From: a virus
Length of the DNA: 20,597 bases
Reading direction: 5' to 3' (one strand)
Virus record (IMG/VR): IMGVR_UViG_3300027973_000260
Coordinates: 1-20,597 of that record
Below the pieces are notes generated by a model, which was given only the letters and a program-made list of their open reading frames with translations, ran no database searches and was not told the DNA's origin. Below, piece after piece: positions 5,880-20,597 of this stretch (its first letter is position 1; each line of letters opens with the position of its first letter). The position numbers and the translations under genes are program-made.

Positions 5880-6692
5880 GTGGCTTCACCGCGTAGAATA
5901 TCGGACATTAAACCACTATTTTCAAATCTTGCCCAAACTTCACACTATGAAGTTCAATTTGGTGGATTTAGTGGTCAATTGCTGTCCTATTTGGATAGGA
6001 GAGGAATAACTCAAAGATTTATTACCAATGATGCTGGACTTCTGTGTTCTTCCACATCTCTTCCAACATTTCAATTGGGATCTGGGGAGATTTATAATCA
6101 TATAGGAGTTCAAGAAAAATTTGCCCATTCGAAAGTTTATTCTCAAATTTCGATGGAATTTTATGTTGATAGTAATTATAATATATTAAAATTTTTAGAA
6201 TATTGGATGGAATTCACTACGAGTGGTTCTTATAATCCAATTGCAGGAGTTTCTAATCCTATTCGGCAAGAATCTCAGGCATATTTTGTTAGGATGCAGT
6301 ATCCAAAATACTATAAATCGGAATCCACAAAAATAATTAAATTTGATCGAGATTATAATGCAGAAATTGAGTATAACTTTATTGGACTTTTCCCGTTAAG
6401 CATATCCTCAATTCCAGTTTCATATAGTTCTTCAAATATAATGCTCATCAACGTTTCATTCCAATTTGATCGTTATATTGCAGGAAGAACTACTAGTTTA
6501 TCAATTTATCAAAATATTAACAATAATTTAATACCAGCATCTGCTACAATTGACAATAGTGTATTGCCAAATAAACTTGCTACTGGTAAGCAGGAAATGC
6601 TTTGGAGAAATCTAAATCAAGGTACGGGAAGATTGGATGATCCAAGACCAAGAGGAGTTGGTGGACCATACAATCCTATTCAAACAATTTGA
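5880..6692 (+). CDS. 54: Baseplate tail-tube initiator gp54-like
   Basis: 270 aa with a GTG start. Assigned to T4 gp54 (tail-tube initiator, sits on gp48 and starts tube polymerisation). The sequence has a tail-tube-type layout: an N-terminal strand YEVQFGGFSG, then CSSTSLPTFQLGSGEIYNH followed by IGVQEKFAHSKVYSQISMEF, and YNILKFLEYWMEFTTSGS, a pattern shared by gp19/gp54-type proteins (target side chain, EKFAH, FY.D..Y..LKFLE.W). The C-terminal 70 residues are Asn/Pro-rich and extended. The upstream 35 bases carry the divergent late promoters. It is divergent to gp48, its presumed structural partner, whereas in T4 48 and 54 are adjacent on one strand. gp48 or another tube-fold protein is the alternative. 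Confidence 0.77.
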   Translation: MASPRRISDIKPLFSNLAQTSHYEVQFGGFSGQLLSYLDRRGITQRFITNDAGLLCSSTSLPTFQLGSGEIYNHIGVQEKFAHSKVYSQISMEFYVDSNYNILKFLEYWMEFTTSGSYNPIAGVSNPIRQESQAYFVRMQYPKYYKSESTKIIKFDRDYNAEIEYNFIGLFPLSISSIPVSYSSSNIMLINVSFQFDRYIAGRTTSLSIYQNINNNLIPASATIDNSVLPNKLATGKQEMLWRNLNQGTGRLDDPRPRGVGGPYNPIQTI

Positions 6693-6726: not shown

Positions 6727-7446
6727 ATGCCTTTACCAACAATCTCTACACCAACATATGAGTTGGAAATTCCTTCAATTAAAAAAACAATTAAATATAG
6801 ACCATTTCTTGTAAAGGAAGAAAAAATTCTTATCATTGCAATGGAAAGTGAAGATTCCAAGCAAATTGCAGATGCTGTTAAAAATGTAATTTCAAACTGT
6901 TTGATTACAAGAGGAATCAAAATTGAAAAACTATCCACATTTGATATTGAATATCTATTTTTAAATATTCGTGGAAAATCTGTAGGAGAAACTGTAAATG
7001 TTTTGATTACTTGCCCAGATGATGGTGTAACAAAAGTACCAGTAAGTATCAATCTTGACGAAATTAAAGTTGAAGTTAGTGATCAACATTCTCGGGATAT
7101 TAAATTGGACGATGCTTTGACAATGAGAATGAAGTATCCATCTATACAGGAATTTATTAAAAGTAATTTTTCCAATACTAATGATGTTAGTGTTGATGAT
7201 ACTTTTGACCTGATCTGTTCATGCATTGAGCAAGTTTATAGCGAAGAAGAGTCTTGGAATGCAAGTGATTTTTCCAACAAAGATCTAATTCAATTTTTGG
7301 AGCAATTAACTTCTAATCAATTTAAAGAAATTGAAAAATTCTTTGAGACTATGCCAAAACTTTCTCATACTGTTAGTCTCAAAAATCCAAATACTAATGT
7401 TGAAAGCACAGTTGTTTTAGAGGGATTGTCAAGTTTTTTCGCTTAG
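6727..7446 (+). CDS. 26: Baseplate hub protein gp26 (short chaperone form)
   Basis: 239 aa (T4 gp26 is 208 aa); matches the T4-type baseplate hub/assembly protein family. Visible: MPLPTISTPTYELEIPSIKK, the block IKYRPFLVKEEKILIIAMES, ITRGIKIEKLSTFDIEYLFLNIRGKSVGE, a Cys-containing VLITCPDDG turn, and an all-helical C-terminal half with IQFLEQLTSNQFKEIEKFFETMPKL. These are hallmark gp26 features: an N-terminal beta part and a C-terminal part resembling small-phage tail chaperones. The last codons contain a T-TTT-TTC heptamer (7434-7440) in the correct phase for -1 slippage into the gp51 frame. The ordinary stop is TAG at 7444-7446. So two products are likely: 239 aa gp26 and a minor 300 aa gp26-gp51 fusion. 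Confidence 0.87.
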   Translation: MPLPTISTPTYELEIPSIKKTIKYRPFLVKEEKILIIAMESEDSKQIADAVKNVISNCLITRGIKIEKLSTFDIEYLFLNIRGKSVGETVNVLITCPDDGVTKVPVSINLDEIKVEVSDQHSRDIKLDDALTMRMKYPSIQEFIKSNFSNTNDVSVDDTFDLICSCIEQVYSEEESWNASDFSNKDLIQFLEQLTSNQFKEIEKFFETMPKLSHTVSLKNPNTNVESTVVLEGLSSFFA

Positions 7447-7476
7447 GTATGTCGCATGAAGATCTTGCGTCATACT
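7434..7476 (+). promoter_or_regulatory. Predicted -1 programmed frameshift signal, gp26 to gp51
   Basis: The slippery heptamer T TTT TTC occupies 7434-7440 in X-XXY-YYZ phase with the gp26 frame. Five bases later a stem-loop runs from 7446 to 7476: pairs 7446-7451 with 7471-7476 (one G-U), a U-U mismatch (7452/7470), pairs 7453-7456 with 7466-7469, another U-U mismatch (7457/7465), pairs 7458-7459 with 7463-7464, and a 3-nt loop. That is 12 base pairs. After a -1 slip the frame reads CGC TTA GGT and enters the gp51 ATG without a stop. All of this is directly in the sequence; its use in translation is inference. Confidence 0.72.
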
Positions 7477-7628
7477 ATAAAACGAACTTTGCTTTGATTC
7501 AACATCATAAATACTCTTTGACGGAGTTAGAAAATATGATACCTTGGGAAAGAGAAATTTATGTATCTCTTCTCCAACAATACATCGAAGAAGAAAATCT
7601 GAAGAATCAATCAAATGGCGGAAGTTGA
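7449..7628 (+). CDS. 51: gp51-like hub assembly factor / frameshift extension
   Basis: 59 aa from the ATG at 7449, two bases after the gp26 stop, ending TGA at 7626-7628 and overlapping the next gene by 14 nt. Sequence blocks YYKTNFALIQHHKYSLTELE, NMIPWEREIYVSLLQQYIEE are typical of the short gp51-annotated proteins of T4-like marine phages (baseplate hub assembly catalyst; T4 gp51 itself is much longer). The motif LIQHHKYSLTELENMIPWER also resembles the T domains of tail-assembly chaperones in siphophages (compact helical, Trp/Tyr-rich). The gene lies in the -1 frame of gp26 and can be reached by frameshifting. Its ATG sits inside the predicted stem, and no clear Shine-Dalgarno is present, so independent initiation may be weak. 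Confidence 0.8.
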   Translation: MSHEDLASYYKTNFALIQHHKYSLTELENMIPWEREIYVSLLQQYIEEENLKNQSNGGS

Positions 7629-9357
7629 TTTAAAATCAGTTGCTAGTAATGGAGTAGATCCAATTACAGGATCTCCGCTGTCCAAAGAAGTAAGGCAGGC
7701 AATTTTAAATAGTACAAAAATATCAAGTTCATCCTTTAGGGGAGATACTACTTTTATATCCCAATATGTAGAGAATAATAATCAAAATTTACAACTTGCA
7801 CAAACAAATCAACAATCTTTAATTGCACTTGATACTCAGGTTAAAAATCTCAATCAGCAAGTTGTAACTTTAAATTCTGGATTAGAAAAAATTGCAGTAT
7901 TAATTCAGCAAGATGGTGCTTCCGACCAATCTAGATTAATATCAGAAGCAGAAAGACAAAGAAGATATGCAGAACAGGAAATAAGAATTGGTAAAGAAAA
8001 TGAGATAGAGCAGAAAATACAATCTGCAGTTCTTATACCAGTTCAAAAACTTACACCAAAAGTTCAAGATATTTTTGGTAATGTTCAAAAGGCACTCACA
8101 TTTCTTTTTGCTGGGTGGCTAACAAATGAGTTAGTTAAATTTTTTGATGCTAAGCAGCAAGGAGATAGGAGTAAACTTACTGAGATTAAAAATAATATTA
8201 TTAAACATCTTGGTATTGCCGCTGGAATTCTTTTTACAATTAAAGGTGGATTTAATTTAATTATTAAAACACTTGGAAGTGTTGTTGCAAAAATTACAGG
8301 ATTGATTGGAAAAATTATTACCGCTCCAATTAAAGCAGTTACATCTACGGCAAAAAGTATTTTTAGTGGTGGTGCTGCTAAAGGCGCAACAACGGCCGCC
8401 ACTAAAGGTGCAACAGAGGGTGCCACTAGTGGATTATTAAAAAATACTGGTAATGTACTTAAGGGTGTTGCTAAAGGTGCCGTTAATGTTGTTCTGGGTG
8501 CTACCGAATTTATAGAAAGAAAGAATGAGGGACAAACAAATGTTCAGGCGGGAGCAGGAACTGCTGCTAGTCTTTATGGGGCAGAAAAAGGCGCTCAGAT
8601 GGGGGCAAAATTGCCAGGACCATTAAAACTTCCAGGAATGATTGCTGGTGGAGCTGCAGGATTTATACTTGCAGGAAAAGGTACTGACCTTCTTACAGGA
8701 GCAAATGCACCAAAACCAGCAGAAAAATCATCAGAAACAGCAAAACCAAAAATTAATTCACAAAAATCAACACCTTCACCAGCAGCTGCACCATCAGTAA
8801 CAGCAACACAACCAAAGATTAATTCAGCAACACCTTCACCAGCAGCTGCACCATCAGTAACAGCAACACAACCAAAGATTAATTCAGCAACACCTTCACC
8901 AGCACCAACACAACCTGAAATTAAATCTACTCCACAAACACCAATGACTGCTGGAGTTGGTAATTATACTTTCAATATTGACACATCAAATCCAGAATTT
9001 AAGCGTATCGAAAATTCATTTGATAGTAAACAATCTGAACAAAAATTAGAGGTAGAGTCTAAAACAAATGAACAAAATATTCCAGAAGTAACTTCACCCA
9101 CTCAATCAAATGAGAAAAAATTAAATATACAACCAGCTCAAGTTCAAAATATACCAAAACCAGTTCCAAATGTAGGTAATTTGCCCGAAGCAAAACCAAA
9201 TGTTATCGTCACATCATCTGGACAATCTCCACAAAAATCACAGAAAGTTTTTCCAAGTACTGGTGAAAGTATGACTGATGTTCCATTGATAAATTCAGCA
9301 AACCCTGATAATTTTTATATCTTGTATTCTCAGTTAAATTATAATGTGGTAATGTAA
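7615..9357 (+). CDS. Large hub/tail protein, tape-measure candidate
   Basis: 580 aa. Layout: residues 1-150 polar and helical, with Gln/Asn-rich heptad-like stretches (LALDTQVKNLNQQVV-type region) suggesting coiled coil; residue 161 onward a hydrophobic LTFLFAGWLTNELVKFF; then hydrophobic/Gly-Ala segments (about 195-360), including GIAAGILFTIKGGFNLIIK and AAKGATTAATKGATEGATSG; then a Pro/Ala/Thr-rich linker with a 20-residue tandem repeat (about 385-430); then a polar tail. I recognise no named family by residues. Length (T4 gp29 tape measure is 590 aa), coiled-coil plus hydrophobic make-up and location directly after the gp26/gp51 chaperone-like pair and before the gp27 hub gene make it the best tape-measure (gp29-type) candidate. 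That is inference. It starts inside gp51 with no Shine-Dalgarno. Confidence 0.85.
   Translation: MAEVDLKSVASNGVDPITGSPLSKEVRQAILNSTKISSSSFRGDTTFISQYVENNNQNLQLAQTNQQSLIALDTQVKNLNQQVVTLNSGLEKIAVLIQQDGASDQSRLISEAERQRRYAEQEIRIGKENEIEQKIQSAVLIPVQKLTPKVQDIFGNVQKALTFLFAGWLTNELVKFFDAKQQGDRSKLTEIKNNIIKHLGIAAGILFTIKGGFNLIIKTLGSVVAKITGLIGKIITAPIKAVTSTAKSIFSGGAAKGATTAATKGATEGATSGLLKNTGNVLKGVAKGAVNVVLGATEFIERKNEGQTNVQAGAGTAASLYGAEKGAQMGAKLPGPLKLPGMIAGGAAGFILAGKGTDLLTGANAPKPAEKSSETAKPKINSQKSTPSPAAAPSVTATQPKINSATPSPAAAPSVTATQPKINSATPSPAPTQPEIKSTPQTPMTAGVGNYTFNIDTSNPEFKRIENSFDSKQSEQKLEVESKTNEQNIPEVTSPTQSNEKKLNIQPAQVQNIPKPVPNVGNLPEAKPNVIVTSSGQSPQKSQKVFPSTGESMTDVPLINSANPDNFYILYSQLNYNVVM
8768..8904 (+). repeat. 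60-bp tandem repeat in tape-measure candidate
   Basis: Exact period of 60 bp: copies 8768-8827 and 8828-8887 plus a 17-bp partial copy to 8904. All three are identical at the base level. The 20-residue unit is Pro/Ala/Ser/Thr-rich (SPAAAPSVTATQPKINSATP register) and forms a flexible linker. Perfect identity points to a recent duplication. Confidence 0.95.
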
Positions 9358-9358
9358 G

Positions 9359-11329
9359 ATGGCATCTATATCCAGTTCTTTTAGATTATCTTTACTTGCA
9401 TCCGAAGATGCTAATAGATCTATTAATACTACAAAAAACCAAATCTTAAAATCTAATATTTCTATTAATAAAATTTCTAGAGTAATATCATCTAATACGA
9501 AAGAAAAGGAAAGATTGGCATTTAAATCAAGTATTCTTGATGCAAGAAGAAGAGAAGCATCTAGAAGAAAGGAAATTGAAGATAGGATTGAAGCATCAAA
9601 AGTAACTACAAATCCAACAAGTGGATTTAGAATGATTAGTTCAAGTTCTGCTGGACCATTTCAGAGATTATTGGGATTTCTTGGATTTTTAACTGCTGGA
9701 TGGTTAGTTGAGAATTTGCCAACAATAATTTTTATAGGAAAGGAATTTATTTCTAGAGTATTTAAAGTTGGAAGTTTAATATCGGATTTTATAGGAGATA
9801 CTTTAAATATAATAAGTAATTTTGGAACTCTTTTAACAAGTGTTGTTACTAACATAGCAACTTTTGATTTTACTGATCAATCAGGCAGAGTAAAAAATTC
9901 ATTTTTAGATTTAAATTCTTCCATGCAATCTGTAAATGATGAATTGTTTCAAGCTTATAAATTATTAACCACACCACTTACACAATCTTCTGATACTGAA
10001 GAAGAAGCACCACCATTAGGAGAAGAAGCGCCAAATACACTTTATCCTCAACCATCAACACCTTCTAGCCCTGTAGGAGGAATTCATAAACAAGCATTGG
10101 ATATTATTGCTGGTCCAGAAAGTGGTGGCAATTATAATGCTATGAATCAAGGAACTGATAAAAATGGAAACATAGTTGGATCAACTATGGGAGGCAAAAC
10201 TTCAAAAGATATTATTGGTAAAAATTTAACTGATATGACCATTGGTGAAGTCATTGATCGTCAAAATGAAAGAAAATATCCAAGAAACGCAAAACCTGAT
10301 TTGGGAGTTCATGCTGCTGGAAAATATCAAATGATTGGTAATACTCTTCCAGGAGCAATGAATTCTGCAGGTTTAAAACCAAGCGATCAATTTAGTCCCG
10401 AAAATCAAGATAGAATGGCACTTGCATTAATGCAAGAAAGGGGAATAGCACCTTGGACTTCTGGAGGATCCAAATACTCTACTAAAGAAAGGGCAATTGT
10501 TGAGCAGGCGAGAAGAACTCCAGTATCAAAGGCACAACCAACACAATCAGCAAAACCAACTCCAACAACAATCTCAACAAAACCTACAAATACTTCCACT
10601 GGATTATCACTTATACCCCAAAGTGGGTCTGGTGGATTTATTCAGGGTGGATCTGGAAATGGTAAAGATAAATTATATGCAACACATTTTCATTTGGATT
10701 ATTCTTCCAAAACAAATGATCCATCAATACTTGCAAGAATTAGAGATGTTGCCTTTTATGCTGTAAAGGCAATGTTTGCAAGAGGATCTAGTGTTTATTT
10801 TGGAAATGCTGGAATTTTTGCAAGTAAAGATGATGCAACTCTAAAATCTCAAATTGCTGCAGAACAGCAAGCACATGGTGCAAGAAGCAGCATGGCAGTT
10901 GATATACAGGAAACTAATCCTTCAGTGCAAAGAACTTTTCCATCTCAACCAGGATCGGCAACTAAATTTCCCTTTGCCGTAGGTTCGGTCTATTATAGGG
11001 GAGGATATGGAAGAGAGGCAGAAATTGTTGGAAGTCAGGGAATTACCGTTTCTCACGGTGCTTCTGGATCTTCTGGATCGGATCTTTCTGGAAAACCAGC
11101 GAAGGCAAATTTATATCCTACAGCAAAATCAAATGTTGAACAAGTAATTACTCCAGAAAGAAAAGGTCAAACAATTGTTGTCGATGTTCCCGAATCATCA
11201 CCACCTCCACAAACCACAGTAGCATCTTATCCAACAGAAGGAAAAAAACCTACTGGTCAAGTAGATAATACTTACTTGTTAAATAGATTTATTAAGCAAA
11301 AACTTCTTCTAGAGCTAGCGTATCTATAA
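9359..11329 (+). CDS. Hub protein with lysozyme-like domain
   Basis: 656 aa. Residues 1-100 helical and charged (REASRRKEIEDRIEA); residues 102-125 hydrophobic LLGFLGFLTAGWLVENLPTI; residues 180-240 acidic/Pro-rich linker; residues about 241-384 a lysozyme-like domain starting IHKQALDIIAGPESGGNYNA with Glu254 as candidate catalytic acid, then TIGEVIDRQ, HAAGKYQMIGNTLPGAM and FSPENQDRMALALM, the usual order in phage glycoside-hydrolase/transglycosylase domains. A Pro/Thr linker leads to a C-terminal globular part (about 425-580) with THFHLDY (442-447) and HGARSSMAVDI (His506, Asp515), which vaguely recalls DD-peptidase-type metal sites. Start is one base after the preceding stop; the stop overlaps the gp27-like start (TAATG). 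It probably supplies the tail-tip cell-wall hydrolase that T4 carries in gp5. Confidence 0.8.
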   Translation: MASISSSFRLSLLASEDANRSINTTKNQILKSNISINKISRVISSNTKEKERLAFKSSILDARRREASRRKEIEDRIEASKVTTNPTSGFRMISSSSAGPFQRLLGFLGFLTAGWLVENLPTIIFIGKEFISRVFKVGSLISDFIGDTLNIISNFGTLLTSVVTNIATFDFTDQSGRVKNSFLDLNSSMQSVNDELFQAYKLLTTPLTQSSDTEEEAPPLGEEAPNTLYPQPSTPSSPVGGIHKQALDIIAGPESGGNYNAMNQGTDKNGNIVGSTMGGKTSKDIIGKNLTDMTIGEVIDRQNERKYPRNAKPDLGVHAAGKYQMIGNTLPGAMNSAGLKPSDQFSPENQDRMALALMQERGIAPWTSGGSKYSTKERAIVEQARRTPVSKAQPTQSAKPTPTTISTKPTNTSTGLSLIPQSGSGGFIQGGSGNGKDKLYATHFHLDYSSKTNDPSILARIRDVAFYAVKAMFARGSSVYFGNAGIFASKDDATLKSQIAAEQQAHGARSSMAVDIQETNPSVQRTFPSQPGSATKFPFAVGSVYYRGGYGREAEIVGSQGITVSHGASGSSGSDLSGKPAKANLYPTAKSNVEQVITPERKGQTIVVDVPESSPPPQTTVASYPTEGKKPTGQVDNTYLLNRFIKQKLLLELAYL

Positions 11330-15706: not shown

Positions 15707-18700
15707 ATGGCAGATATTACCGTATTTGGAAATGAATCTTATTTTAATGAAAAGGTAACTTTTTTTAAAAATATTATTGCACCAAATCTTCAAGATGGTA
15801 AATATCAATTAGCTTCAGAATGGGAATCTGAAAATGAAATTTTATCAGCTGGTACTTTAGGTATTGAATCTGATACTAATCGCTTTAAGTTTGGTGATGG
15901 AGTTACTCCTTGGAATAATCTAGGATACGCATCCGTCGAAGCTATTCAGGGTACAAGTGGGCAATTTTCTGGACAAGGTACTCAAGGTCTTCAAGGTCGC
16001 CAAGGTCTACAGGGACTTCAAGGTACTCCGGGCAATCAAGGATTCCAGGGTACTCAAGGTACTCAAGGATTTCAAGGTACTCAAGGTACTCAAGGTACTC
16101 AAGGAAACCAAGGCAATCAGGGTACTCAGGGTACTCAAGGTGATCAAGGTGTCCAAGGTACTCAAGGTCGTCAAGGTGCTCAAGGATTTACTGGTGGTTT
16201 TGGTTCTCAAGGTAATCAAGGCACTCAAGGTGACCAAGGTACTCAAGGTCGTCAAGGTGCTCAGGGCACTCAAGGTGTTCAAGGTGTTCAAGGACCATTA
16301 AGTGATTTCCAAGGTACTCAAGGTAATCAAGGTCTTCAAGGTCTTCAAGGTCTTCAAGGTCGTCAAGGCACTCAAGGACTTCAAGGACTTCAAGGACCAT
16401 TAAGTGATTTCCAAGGTACTCAAGGAAACCAAAGTACTCAAGGACTTCAAGGAAATCAAGGTGTTCAGGGATTTTTGAGTAATTTTCAGGGTACTCAGGG
16501 TGCTCAAGGTACTCAAGGTCGCCAAGGATTTCAAGGTACTCAAGGTCGCCAAGGACTTCAGGGACCATTAAGTAATTTCCAAGGTACTCAAGGTCGCCAA
16601 GGTACTCAAGGTGATCAAGGTGTCCAAGGTAATCAGGGAAACCAAGGTAATCAGGGTCGCCAGGGTACTCAAGCTGCTCAAGGGCGCGTGGGCGCCCAAG
16701 GTACTCAAGGACTTTCCAATCAAGGTATTCAAGGAAATCAAGGTCTTCAAGGTCAACAAAGTGCTCAAGGTACTCAAGGTCGCCAGGGTAATCAAGGAAA
16801 CCAAGGTACTCAAGGTGACCAGGGCACCCAAGGTAATCAAGGAAACCAAGGTACTCAAGGTGACCAGGGTACTCAAGGTACTCAGGGACGCCAGGGGCGC
16901 CAAGGTACTCAAGGAAATCAAGGAAACCAAGGTACTCAAGGTGACCAGGGTACTCAAGGTAATCAAGGAAACCAAGGTCTTCAAGGAAATCAAGGAAATC
17001 AAGGAAATCAAGGTCTTCAAGGAAATCAAGGAAATCAAGGTACTCAAGGAAACCAAGGTCGCCAGGGTCTACAAGGAAATCAAGGTCGCCAGGGTCTACA
17101 AGGAAATCAAGGATTCCAAGGTACTCAAGGAAATCAAGGTACTCAAGGTGATCAAGGTACTCAAGGTACTCAAGGATTAGGTAATCAAGGACTTCAGGGT
17201 GCAGCATCTTTTCAAGGGTCCCAGGGTACTCAAGGTGCTCAAGGAAACCAAGGTGCTCAAGGAAACCAAGGTACATTAAGTAATTTCCAAGGTACTCAAG
17301 GTACTCAAGGTCAACAAAGTGCTCAAGGTATTCAAGGTCCCCAAGGTCGTCAAGGTGTTCAAGGATTTTTAAGTAATTTCCAAGGAACTCAAGGTGCCCA
17401 AGGTACTCAAGGTACTCAGGGTGCTCAAGGGCGCCAGGGTACTCAAGGAAATCAAGGTACATTAAGTAATTTCCAAGGAACTCAAGGACTTCAAGGACCA
17501 TTAAGTGATTTCCAAGGTACTCAGGGACTTCAAGGTAATCAAGGCCTTGGTGCTCAAGGTACTCAAGGAAATCAGGGTCGTCAAGGAACTCAAGGTAATC
17601 AAGGTACGCAAGGTAATCAAGGTACGCAAGGTAATCAAGGTCGCCAAGGACTTCAAGGACCATTAAGTAATTTCCAAGGTACTCAAGGTGCTCAAGGTAC
17701 TCAAGGATTCCAAGGTACTCAAGGTGACCAGGGTACTCAAGGAAACCAAGGTGTTCAAGGATTTTTAAGTAATTTCCAAGGTACTCAAGGTAATCAAGGT
17801 ACTCAAGGTAATCAAGGTACACAAGGTACACAAGGTAATCAGGGATTTCAAGGCACTCAAGGACAACAAAGTGCTCAAGGCACTCAAGGCACTCAAGGAA
17901 ACCAAGGTGTTCAAGGATTTTTAAGTAATTTCCAAGGAACTCAAGGTAATCAAGGTACACAAGGTACACAAGGTAATCAAGGACTTCAGGGTGCAGCATC
18001 TTTTCAAGGGACTCAGGGTACTCAAGGTACTCAGGGTAATCAAGGTGTTCAAGGTACTCAGGGTAATCAAGGTGTTCAAGGTACTCAAGGTCGCCAAGGT
18101 CTTCAGGCTAATCAAGGACTTCAGGGTGCAGCATCTTTTCAAGGTCCTCAAGGTACTCAAGGTACTCAAGGTACTCAAGGACGCCAAGGTACTCAAGGAA
18201 ACCAAGGTCTTCAAGGAATTCCTGGTTCTGGAGTCATAGTATTAGAAGACAATAATACTACCAATGAAGTTGATTATCTAACATTCGTAAAACAAACAAG
18301 TGGAACAACAAATAATGAATATGTTTCTTCTAAAAAATTAGTTTATAATCCATCATCCGGTAGTGTTGGTATTGGAACAAGTATTGTAACAAATACTTTA
18401 ACAGTTGTAGGAACAACAACTTCCACGGAATATTTTGGTAGTGGTGTAAATCTAGTTGGAATTGTAACGCAATTAGTACCTGGTATTGGTATTGATATTA
18501 CCTCAACACAAAATCCAGGAAAAGGTAGGGTAACTGTTGATGCATATCGTCCAATTGGAAAAACAATTTATGTTTCTCAAACTGGTAATGATGATAATAC
18601 TGGATTAGCAGAAAATTATCCAAAAAGAACTATCAAATCAGCTGCCTCTGTTGCTTTGTTTGGAGACACAATTAAAGTATTTCCGGGAGTATATGTTGAA

Positions 18701-20597
18701 AATAATCCAATTGTTCTGGCAAAAACAGTATCAGTACAGGGAACAGAACTTCGTAACTGTGTAGTAACACCACAATATCCAGATCAGGATCTATTCTATG
18801 TAAACAATGGATGCCACATTACTAATATAAGTTTCATTGGACCAAATATGACCAGTGGATCTGCTGTCGTTTCTTTACAACCACTATCTGGTGTGGCGAC
18901 AGATAGATTCTTTGATGCAGCAAGAATGATTCGTTTGAATTTAGATTATATTGCAAAAGAATCTGTTGGATTCTTAACAAGTGGATTTAGTGGATTTGCA
19001 GGCAGTCACAGAGAGCAAGATGCTGCAAGACTAATTGATAAGAACTTAAATTATATTTCTGCAGAAGCAGTTGGATTCTTAACATCACCTGTTGGATATG
19101 GATTTACATTATCAAGCGGAGATTATACAAACTGTAGGGAAGATGTTGTCAGCATTATGAATGCTGTTTCTTATGATCTTAAGGCAAACAGTAATCGCAA
19201 ATCAATTGGTGCGGGATATTCATATTTCAATAGTTCTGGTGGTCTAATTCATATTACTGGTATTGCAACTCAAAGAGCAACAATTGCTGCACTAAATTAT
19301 GCTGCAGGAATTGCAACTCATGTGATTAATAATTATACTCCTCCAATTTCATATCAATCTGGAATTGGTAGTGTTTCCCAAATCAAAGATGCATCGGTAA
19401 TTATTGTAAATGGTGGATGTGTTGGTGTCGGAACAACTATTCGCCAACTTGTCGGTATTGTGACCAATATGATTGGGGCAGCAAGTACATTAACTGCACC
19501 ATCAGTTCGTTATGGTGTTGTACTTGAAAGTGGAGATTGTTCAGATGATGTTAGATCGGTATGGAAGTGTATAATTCATGATATTACAAGAGGTGGAAAC
19601 TCTAGATCGGTTGCGGCAGGTAAAGCTTATTATGATTCTAATTGGAATCTAATTCCACAAATTCTTCATAATCCTGGAGAAGTTCAACAAACAATCTCAA
19701 CATTTAATTATTCATTCAATATTGCCCGAGCCGTAATTAATAACTGCTCCTGGGGAGGTTATCCTGTTGGATTGGGAACCACTGTGGTAAATGCTGTGTA
19801 TGATGCAAATACAGGTATTACAACTATAACCGCAATAAACCACGGATTGACTAAAAATGATCCAGTAAAGATTGCTGGTCTTGGATTCACTTGCCCTTCT
19901 GGACCTGGAACATTATTATATCCAAGTGGAAATCTTGGGTATATTTTCCCAGTTAAATCTATAGTTGGAGTGAACACATTTGAAGTTGTAGTTGGACAAT
20001 CAACCTTACCACATACTTATGTTTCGGGTGGAACAATTCAAAAATACACAAACTTCCAAAATCAATACACACAAATCAAAGATCTTGCAATGCAAGTTGA
20101 TCCTAAAACCGGATTTAATGATGTTATTGCTTCGTGTGCCGATGTTGCATCAGCATTAAAATCTTGTGTTGGCATTGTAACTTCAATTGTAGGATTTGGA
20201 TCTACAGCATTTGCATATGTTGGATTTAATACCACATATCCCGGAAATAGGGGATCTGGATTTGATTCGATTAGAAAAATTCAAAATGCAATTTATGATG
20301 AAAAGAGTGGTAAAACAACAATTACATCACAAGGATTCTCTTTGAAAAAGGGTGATATTATCGAAGTCCGTGATTTACTTTTCTCTTGTTCATCTGGTGG
20401 ACCAACATCGACTCAATTATTCCCATCTGGAAGATATGGATATGAGTTTTATATTGAAAAAGTCTATCCAAATGGGACATTTGACATCTATACTGGAATT
20501 AGTACTATTCCACATACATATGTTTCTGGAGGATATATTATAAATCGTTCAGTAGGTGTTACCACTGCATCATATAATAATTTAACTGGAATTACCA
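15707..20597 (+). CDS. Giant collagen-like tail fibre, 3' end outside window
   Basis: Open from the ATG at 15707 to the last base with no stop, so at least 1630 codons; partial at its 3' end. Order of parts: residues 1-80 with GTLGIESDTNRFKFGDGVTPWNN, which is the Mtd_N-type (tropism determinant) motif; residues about 82-842 collagen-like Gly-X-Gln triplets; residues 850-940 a fibre module with YNPSSGSVGIGT; residues 951-1045 a pectin-lyase-like right-handed beta-helix start (TIYVSQTGNDDNTGL, DTIKVFPGVYVENNPI); residues 1067-1135 two 35-residue repeats with RLNLDYIAKESVGFLTS; residues 1370-1443 and 1537-1612 two copies of a beta domain ending PHTYVSGG. It is likely an adsorption fibre or whisker; which end binds host is unknown. 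It starts one base after the spike gene stop. Confidence 0.9.
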   Translation, partial: MADITVFGNESYFNEKVTFFKNIIAPNLQDGKYQLASEWESENEILSAGTLGIESDTNRFKFGDGVTPWNNLGYASVEAIQGTSGQFSGQGTQGLQGRQGLQGLQGTPGNQGFQGTQGTQGFQGTQGTQGTQGNQGNQGTQGTQGDQGVQGTQGRQGAQGFTGGFGSQGNQGTQGDQGTQGRQGAQGTQGVQGVQGPLSDFQGTQGNQGLQGLQGLQGRQGTQGLQGLQGPLSDFQGTQGNQSTQGLQGNQGVQGFLSNFQGTQGAQGTQGRQGFQGTQGRQGLQGPLSNFQGTQGRQGTQGDQGVQGNQGNQGNQGRQGTQAAQGRVGAQGTQGLSNQGIQGNQGLQGQQSAQGTQGRQGNQGNQGTQGDQGTQGNQGNQGTQGDQGTQGTQGRQGRQGTQGNQGNQGTQGDQGTQGNQGNQGLQGNQGNQGNQGLQGNQGNQGTQGNQGRQGLQGNQGRQGLQGNQGFQGTQGNQGTQGDQGTQGTQGLGNQGLQGAASFQGSQGTQGAQGNQGAQGNQGTLSNFQGTQGTQGQQSAQGIQGPQGRQGVQGFLSNFQGTQGAQGTQGTQGAQGRQGTQGNQGTLSNFQGTQGLQGPLSDFQGTQGLQGNQGLGAQGTQGNQGRQGTQGNQGTQGNQGTQGNQGRQGLQGPLSNFQGTQGAQGTQGFQGTQGDQGTQGNQGVQGFLSNFQGTQGNQGTQGNQGTQGTQGNQGFQGTQGQQSAQGTQGTQGNQGVQGFLSNFQGTQGNQGTQGTQGNQGLQGAASFQGTQGTQGTQGNQGVQGTQGNQGVQGTQGRQGLQANQGLQGAASFQGPQGTQGTQGTQGRQGTQGNQGLQGIPGSGVIVLEDNNTTNEVDYLTFVKQTSGTTNNEYVSSKKLVYNPSSGSVGIGTSIVTNTLTVVGTTTSTEYFGSGVNLVGIVTQLVPGIGIDITSTQNPGKGRVTVDAYRPIGKTIYVSQTGNDDNTGLAENYPKRTIKSAASVALFGDTIKVFPGVYVENNPIVLAKTVSVQGTELRNCVVTPQYPDQDLFYVNNGCHITNISFIGPNMTSGSAVVSLQPLSGVATDRFFDAARMIRLNLDYIAKESVGFLTSGFSGFAGSHREQDAARLIDKNLNYISAEAVGFLTSPVGYGFTLSSGDYTNCREDVVSIMNAVSYDLKANSNRKSIGAGYSYFNSSGGLIHITGIATQRATIAALNYAAGIATHVINNYTPPISYQSGIGSVSQIKDASVIIVNGGCVGVGTTIRQLVGIVTNMIGAASTLTAPSVRYGVVLESGDCSDDVRSVWKCIIHDITRGGNSRSVAAGKAYYDSNWNLIPQILHNPGEVQQTISTFNYSFNIARAVINNCSWGGYPVGLGTTVVNAVYDANTGITTITAINHGLTKNDPVKIAGLGFTCPSGPGTLLYPSGNLGYIFPVKSIVGVNTFEVVVGQSTLPHTYVSGGTIQKYTNFQNQYTQIKDLAMQVDPKTGFNDVIASCADVASALKSCVGIVTSIVGFGSTAFAYVGFNTTYPGNRGSGFDSIRKIQNAIYDEKSGKTTITSQGFSLKKGDIIEVRDLLFSCSSGGPTSTQLFPSGRYGYEFYIEKVYPNGTFDIYTGISTIPHTYVSGGYIINRSVGVTTASYNNLTGIT
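15949..18226 (+). repeat. Collagen-like Gly-X-Gln repeat region
   Basis: About 250 triplets dominated by GGT/GGA-NNN-CAA/CAG, so the Y position is almost always Gln, while Pro is nearly absent. X is mainly Thr, Asn, Leu, Arg, Asp, Val, Ala or Phe. The reading frame is kept throughout. Regular interruptions are present: eleven G-[P/F/T]-L-S-[D/N]-F-Q-G motifs (first near 16292, last near 17918), which shift the triplet register by one residue, GAASFQG (three copies), and Gly-to-Ser or Gly-to-Ala single changes (NQSTQ, QQSAQ, LQANQ). High base-level similarity makes it prone to unequal recombination. Confidence 0.95.
17180..18144 (+). repeat. Three dispersed 38-bp copies within collagen region
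   Basis: The same 38-base block encoding NQGLQGAASFQG-type sequence occurs at 17180-17217, 17972-18009 and 18107-18144, the last with GCT instead of GGT at its first codon. Such near-identical blocks show recent internal duplication of the repeat. Confidence 0.85.
18914..19113 (+). repeat. Two 35-residue repeats in fibre
   Basis: Two diverged copies start at 18914 and 19019, exactly 105 bp apart. Both encode DAAR-[ML]-I-x(2)-NL-[DN]-YI-[AS]-x-E-[SA]-VGFLTS. The type is familiar from structural proteins of marine T4-like phages. Confidence 0.8.
19816..20541 (+). repeat. Two copies of a beta-domain ending PHTYVSGG
   Basis: Copy 1 (19816-20036) and copy 2 (20317-20541) share the plan TITxxxxxLxKxDxxxI, then a Cys-containing F.C, then FPSG/YPSG, GY.F, TF.., ST.PHTYVSGG. 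About 75 residues each, with a helical-looking spacer of roughly 90 residues between. The reading frame continues past copy 2, so more copies may follow outside the window. Confidence 0.75.

Follow-up and report, generated by a model that had tools for sequence, protein, structure and literature searches.

The 20,597-nucleotide stretch of viral DNA analyzed here, hereinafter the window (positions 1 to 20,597 of the IMG/VR record IMGVR_UViG_3300027973_000260), codes on its plus strand for two adjacent proteins of a T4-like cyanophage, gp26 and gp51, whose junction carries a candidate signal for programmed -1 ribosomal frameshifting. The gp26 gene (6727..7446) specifies a 239-residue protein ending in ...SSFFA, which belongs to the T4 gp26 family by its match to PF12322 (T4_baseplate; E = 4.6e-72, 242.7 bits as against a curated cut-off of 24.5) and also matches phrog_150 (E = 1.6e-79). 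As usually annotated, gp51 is a 59-residue open reading frame (7449..7628) whose ATG at 7449 lies in the -1 frame, two nucleotides after the gp26 stop codon, a TAG at 7444..7446. The junction reads ...AGT TTT TTC GCT TAG GT ATG... and contains, one codon before the stop, a slippery heptamer, T TTT TTC (7434..7440; T7434, TTT 7435-7437 and TTC 7438-7440), followed by a 5-nucleotide spacer (7441..7445) and a stem-loop of 12 base pairs with two U-U mismatches (7446..7476), which holds the gp51 ATG within its 5′ arm. A ribosome slipping back at the heptamer would continue over 7440..7625 through Arg-Leu-Gly into gp51, yielding a product of 300 residues (residues 1-238 of gp26, the three linking residues and the 59 of gp51); the translated extension matches phrog_634 (E = 2.8e-28) and the C-terminal positions 238-278 of phrog_150 (E = 8.6e-07). 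The first-pass annotation had read this site as a -1 programmed frameshift fusing gp26 to gp51 in the manner of tail chaperones. Its counts for the heptamer, spacer, stem and fusion all proved correct on re-check, and the proposal itself is strongly supported by comparative evidence from the heptamer, the -1 frame, the stem and relatives lacking a gp51 start codon. We consider it highly probable that ribosomes are programmed by this site to shift into the -1 frame and make a gp26-gp51 fusion.

Rarity and conservation of the heptamer

In frame, T_TTT_TTC occurs only once among the 5,869 codon positions covered by the coding sequences listed for the window. A first scan gathered 80 viral contigs with a gp26 of 68-82% identity, and in 79 of them T TTT TTC stands one codon before the stop, the 80th (L017) being an in-frame fusion. 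This set was enlarged with sister clades, annotated isolates and distant T4-like phages to 180 unique gp26 junctions. Their alignment, a check suggested along with the frameshift proposal, keeps the heptamer at 171 junctions; three further junctions read T TTT TTT and two T TTT TTG, which are still slip-capable variants. The remaining four are L017, RB43 (T4-type, with separate genes) and the atypical Vibrio phage D532 and Ackermannviridae phage BX-1. The phages bearing the heptamer include P-SSM2, S-RIM2, KVP40, Aeh1, AS-yj, LPCS28, Moby, OLIVR6 and SRB7757, and versions with a final G or T are seen in phiM9, RL38J1 and Atu_ph04, such that the site is spread across Kyanoviridae, KVP40, Aeh1, AS-yj, LPCS28, Pootjesviridae, Menderavirus and others. 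Thus, the presence of the heptamer at the gp26/gp51 junction is confirmed and lies far beyond chance.

One could suppose that only the Phe-Phe pair is kept, for the sake of the protein, with TTT TTC and the hairpin arising by chance or as by-products of AT-rich codon use. Indeed, the GLxxFF motif to which this pair belongs is conserved even in T4 gp26 (RGLKEFFELL). However, T4 gene 26 reads GAG TTC TTT at the site, retaining both Phe residues with the heptamer lost, and the Phe codons of the same genes vary elsewhere. An alignment of 75 gp26 genes has 96 codon columns in which the amino acid never varies; of these, only the two Phe positions of the heptamer are encoded by a single codon (TTT in 75/75 and TTC in 75/75, with TTC making up 30% of all Phe codons). 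The base preceding them is T in 75/75, supplied by five different codons (AGT, TCT, GCT, AAT and GAT). Away from the junction, T_TTT_TTC is found at none of 43,726 other codon positions in the gp26 relatives and at none of their 209 other Phe-Phe pairs. Because the other Phe codons vary, no other Phe-Phe pair matches and T4 encodes its own pair as TTC TTT, protein conservation alone does not explain the pattern. On this codon evidence the heptamer is conserved beyond protein constraint, and the probability of the protein-level or chance account appears close to nil.

The open -1 frame as a probable route to gp51

Wherever tblastn detected gp51 in the other first-scan loci, it lay in the -1 frame, 5 nucleotides after the start of the stop codon. 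We surveyed this frame at 178 junctions (the 180 minus the in-frame fusion L017 and the split genes of RB43), and in all 178 it is open for at least 122 nucleotides beyond the gp26 stop. At 26 of these junctions, from five or more lineages, there is no ATG, GTG or TTG able to start the conserved gp51 tail. This group, which includes S-RIM2, S-RIM8, ACG-2014d, Aeh1, AS-yj, LPCS28, SRB7757, OLIVR6 and the contigs L018 and L045, still retains both the slippery site and an uninterrupted -1 frame. Since gp51 lacks a start codon there, a -1 shift would be its only plausible route of expression in these lineages.

A ribosome might alternatively stop at the TAG and re-initiate at the gp51 ATG, making gp51 a separate 59-residue protein to which the heptamer is incidental; this could also coexist with frameshifting. 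The TAG-GT-ATG geometry of the window and an ATG within 20 nucleotides in 145 of the 178 relatives are as such a mechanism would have them. As the sole explanation it is nonetheless improbable in our estimate, given the 26 start-less relatives with their slip site and open frame: it leaves the invariant TTT TTC and its preceding T unexplained, and the ATG of the window is held in base pairs of the stem, with no Shine-Dalgarno sequence at a starting distance. The first-pass annotation had suggested that frameshifting may be the main route to gp51. The evidence supports this only for the lineages with no gp51 start codon; in the window the ATG is present, and re-initiation could add some free gp51.

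Public annotations reflect this arrangement poorly: the place of gp51 is left empty in Aeh1, ACG-2014d and Syn10, and gp51 is started at an internal ATG in S-RIM2 and S-RIM8. In many phages, therefore, including Aeh1, ACG-2014d, Syn10 and S-RIM2, gp51 would be misannotated, whether as an independent "hub assembly catalyst", in truncated form or by omission. The readings predict distinct tryptic peptides in the window: NPNTNVESTVVLEGLSSFFR and LGMSHEDLASYYK for the fusion, NPNTNVESTVVLEGLSSFFA for the short form and SHEDLASYYK/MSHEDLASYYK for gp51 re-initiation. The corresponding fusion peptides of P-SSM2 would be ENEVVLEGLQSFFR and ISMAHEDLESYYK.

Elements flanking the heptamer

The window stem at 7446-7476 comprises 11 Watson-Crick pairs, one G-U pair and the two U-U mismatches around the loop AGA. 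The RNA of 7434-7490 folds at -14.9 kcal/mol as compared to -7.7 ± 2.2 for shuffled versions (z = -3.3; 1 of 200 shuffles as stable). The proposal had also suggested a test for compensatory changes in the stem, and these are found in the window's clade, for which we used 71 unique junctions. Pairing is present in 87% of cells, changes on both sides are seen in 42 cells versus 18 in shuffles, and the covariation score lies above all 500 shuffles and all slid versions of the stem. The key pair, 44-58, is G-C in 31 junctions, U-A in 30 and A-U in 4, and on the gp26 tree column 44 must have changed at least 11 times and column 58 at least 12 times. One partner of this pair usually occupies the wobble position of an Ala codon; its counterpart sits at the middle position of a codon switching between Ala, Glu and Val, such that the gp51 residue varies while base pairing is maintained. 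An independent-pairs tree test of the covariation had low power, with only 3 pairs on supported branches. In 45 of the 71 loci the stem is more stable than every gp26 segment tested.

These features also bear on transcriptional slippage, whereby the polymerase would gain or lose a base on the T run in some mRNAs, producing the fusion with no ribosomal slip. The homopolymer of six T and an identical protein product would be in keeping with this, though six T is short for polymerase slippage. Throughout the window's clade neither the trailing C nor the codon register (a third base followed by the two Phe codons) varies, and a stem downstream that has undergone compensatory change suits ribosomal rather than polymerase slippage; hence, we regard the transcriptional account as very improbable.

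The gp51 ATG is paired inside the window stem, and across the junctions the median fold is -12.1 kcal/mol where an ATG is present as against -5.3 where there is no start codon. We tentatively raise the idea, which we think rather unlikely, that in the window's clade the stem may both stimulate the -1 shift and lock the gp51 ATG; the tail-binding domain would then be made only within the fusion, and no free competing copy would arise. That strong stems go with an ATG fits such locking, yet could arise simply because the ATG forms part of the stem arm. In L164, L179 and L192 the stem is kept with a different arm and the ATG in its loop.

Upstream of the heptamer lies a Shine-Dalgarno-like GAGGG (7420..7424), 9 nucleotides 5′ of the heptamer and 24 nucleotides 5′ of the gp51 ATG. 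It is not a start signal for gp51, because 24 nucleotides is too far from the ATG. Shine-Dalgarno-like elements are known to stimulate -1 shifting in E. coli dnaX. Among the 71 relatives, the Glu codon at this site is GAG in 62 as compared to 29% elsewhere in the same genes, the preceding Leu codon ends in G in 47 as compared to 27% elsewhere, and GGAGG is present in 41. GAGGG is favoured beyond codon bias and is perhaps a frameshift stimulator. As a caveat to that role, T4, which lacks the slippery site, also carries AGAGG at this position.

A proposed two-form tail chaperone and its departures in T4

We propose that gp26 and gp51 constitute one tail-assembly-chaperone (TAC) gene with two readings. 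Most ribosomes would stop at the gp26 TAG and release the 239-residue short form (TAC-N), while a minority, decoding Phe-Phe on U UUU UUC, would slip back one base and read through gp51 (TAC-C) into the 300-residue long form (TAC-NC). In the window's clade the stem-loop 3′ of the site would aid the slip, as perhaps would the upstream GAGGG. If the lambda gpG/gpGT model applies, the tape-measure protein would be coated by the short form, and the gp51 tail of the long form would recruit the tail-tube protein. The slippage itself and its efficiency are predictions, and the chaperone function is suggested by synteny, the two-form design and the literature. Under this proposal, most T4-like phages in the sample would share the lambda-type two-form strategy, T4, with its two genes, being an exception.

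Several observations weigh against this interpretation. The S-RIM2-type, Aeh1 and L018 junctions fold no better than shuffles, and the sister clade shows other or shorter hairpins with no consensus structure, such that a universal stem is rejected and the element is clade-specific. The Shine-Dalgarno-like GAGGG coincides with codons for a conserved amino-acid motif, E/R/K-G-L, and two distant groups, those of D532 and BX-1, have atypical slip sites. The tape-measure identity of the gene downstream of gp51 (7615-9357) is positional and lacks homology. Finally, a model of the L017 fusion found no significant match among solved structures, the HK97 chaperone 2ob9 ranking 38th (E = 5.2, rmsd 3.0 over 56 columns).

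The lambda slippery sequence, G GGA AAG, differs from that of the window, where a hairpin is also present. The gene order is shared, with a tail-tube gene upstream and a long gene downstream in lambda gpG/gpGT (PMC5009743) as in the window. The E/E+E′ genes of P2 (Christie et al. 2002, as described in PMC3091744) likewise undergo a -1 shift at a T_TTT_TT-type site, TTTTTTG, and lie between the major tail protein and tape-measure genes; by that description the P2-type site lacks a downstream hairpin, unlike the window. The chaperones of Vandenendeviridae and Andersonviridae (PMC12846349) have an invariant GTTTTT and, as in the window, an open -1 frame, which is often mis-annotated there as a separate gene; the phage families and the slip motif differ from those of the window.

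A literature search combining frameshift with gp26 and gp51, or cyanophage with slippery, yielded no direct report among the papers covered, and earlier work was reached via reference lists. The first-pass annotation had known of no report of frameshifting in these genes, which is wrong: PMC12846349 names Vladimirov, Gautam & Davidson 2022 (Virology 566:9-15; pmid 34826709) as its source on poly-T slip signals within the TAC-N genes of T4-like phages, and both it and PMC10274946 credit that study with identifying the T4-like tail assembly chaperone genes. Frameshifting in T4-like chaperone genes is thus already published, and the window locus adds one more TAC-N/TAC-NC member, its genes being of the same kind with the poly-T site in TAC-N. 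Such frameshifting is reportedly described in the abstract of the 2022 study as apparently conserved in several T4-like groups, with T4 using separate genes 26 and 51.

In T4, genes 26 and 51 are divergently transcribed. T4 gp51 has 249 residues, of which 1-202 align to the gp26 profile (E = 2.9e-7) and 199-249 to the gp51 profile (E = 9.5e-6); by these alignments T4 gp51 is the long form as a separate gene, joining a gp26-like domain to the gp51 tail. The gp51 of the window is the 59-residue tail only, without this gp26-like N-terminal domain, and hence is not a separate long gene of the T4 type. The T4 result matches the separate short and long genes of T4-type phages: PMC10274946 states, citing earlier work, that in some T4-like phages the chaperone is encoded by a short gene and a separate long one. 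A 2016 review (PMC5009743) describes the G-T frameshift as conserved "except T4". In Vibrio phage pv27 (L109:311-1653), a gp26-like gene annotated as baseplate hub is followed by a neighbour that ends in a gp51 tail, an apparent tandem short/long pair that is possibly an intermediate towards the T4 arrangement.

Other departures take different forms. In L017 (3194-3240 of a 236-kb viral contig), gp26 and gp51 are one in-frame gene reading TCT TTT TGG TTA GGA ATG, the slip region being two bases shorter than in relatives; this is either a natural fusion with no short form or an assembly error. Vibrio D532 (L086:3180-3260; CTT TTC AAG TAA) and BX-1 (L111:2215-2260; GTT TTT CGC TAA, resembling the Vandenendeviridae GTTTTT) keep the -1 gp51 frame without the standard heptamer, and a search with the D532 gp26 as the query found no relatives. 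In Rhizobium phage RL38J1 (L102:1806-2125), an annotated "Repeat 1" near the record end spans the slip site and gp51.

Directly 5′ of gp26 in the window is a gene (5880..6692, plus strand, GTG start as listed) that profile matches identify as a tail-tube protein (PF23849, Phage_TTP_2, E = 4.6e-11; phrog_45, tail tube, E = 1.8e-38). The plus-strand gene 3′ of gp51 (7615..9357) codes for 580 residues. Its naming as the tape-measure candidate in the first-pass annotation stands on position and length: single-sequence hhalign found no homology to T4 gp29 or to the following gene, and profile searches gave no informative family match. A hydrophobic stretch containing AGWL is present both in this gene and in the next (9359-11329), as LFAGWLTNELVKFF and FLTAGWLVENLPTI. 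The product of the second also matches the endolysin families phrog_90 and phrog_1200, and either long gene is a tape-measure candidate.

The AlphaFold model of the L017 fusion has a pLDDT of 85.9, with the gp26 blocks mostly at 88-97 and a helical gp51 tail that is weaker. Searches of the PDB by sequence and fold gave no significant chaperone match, and among viral models most of the best matches that carry a name are T4-like baseplate-hub proteins. Farther downstream, 15707-20596 is occupied by a fibre-like gene of 1,630 residues that runs off the window and whose collagen-like QGxQG repeats extend over a very long region; 603 codons are also open there on the opposite strand.
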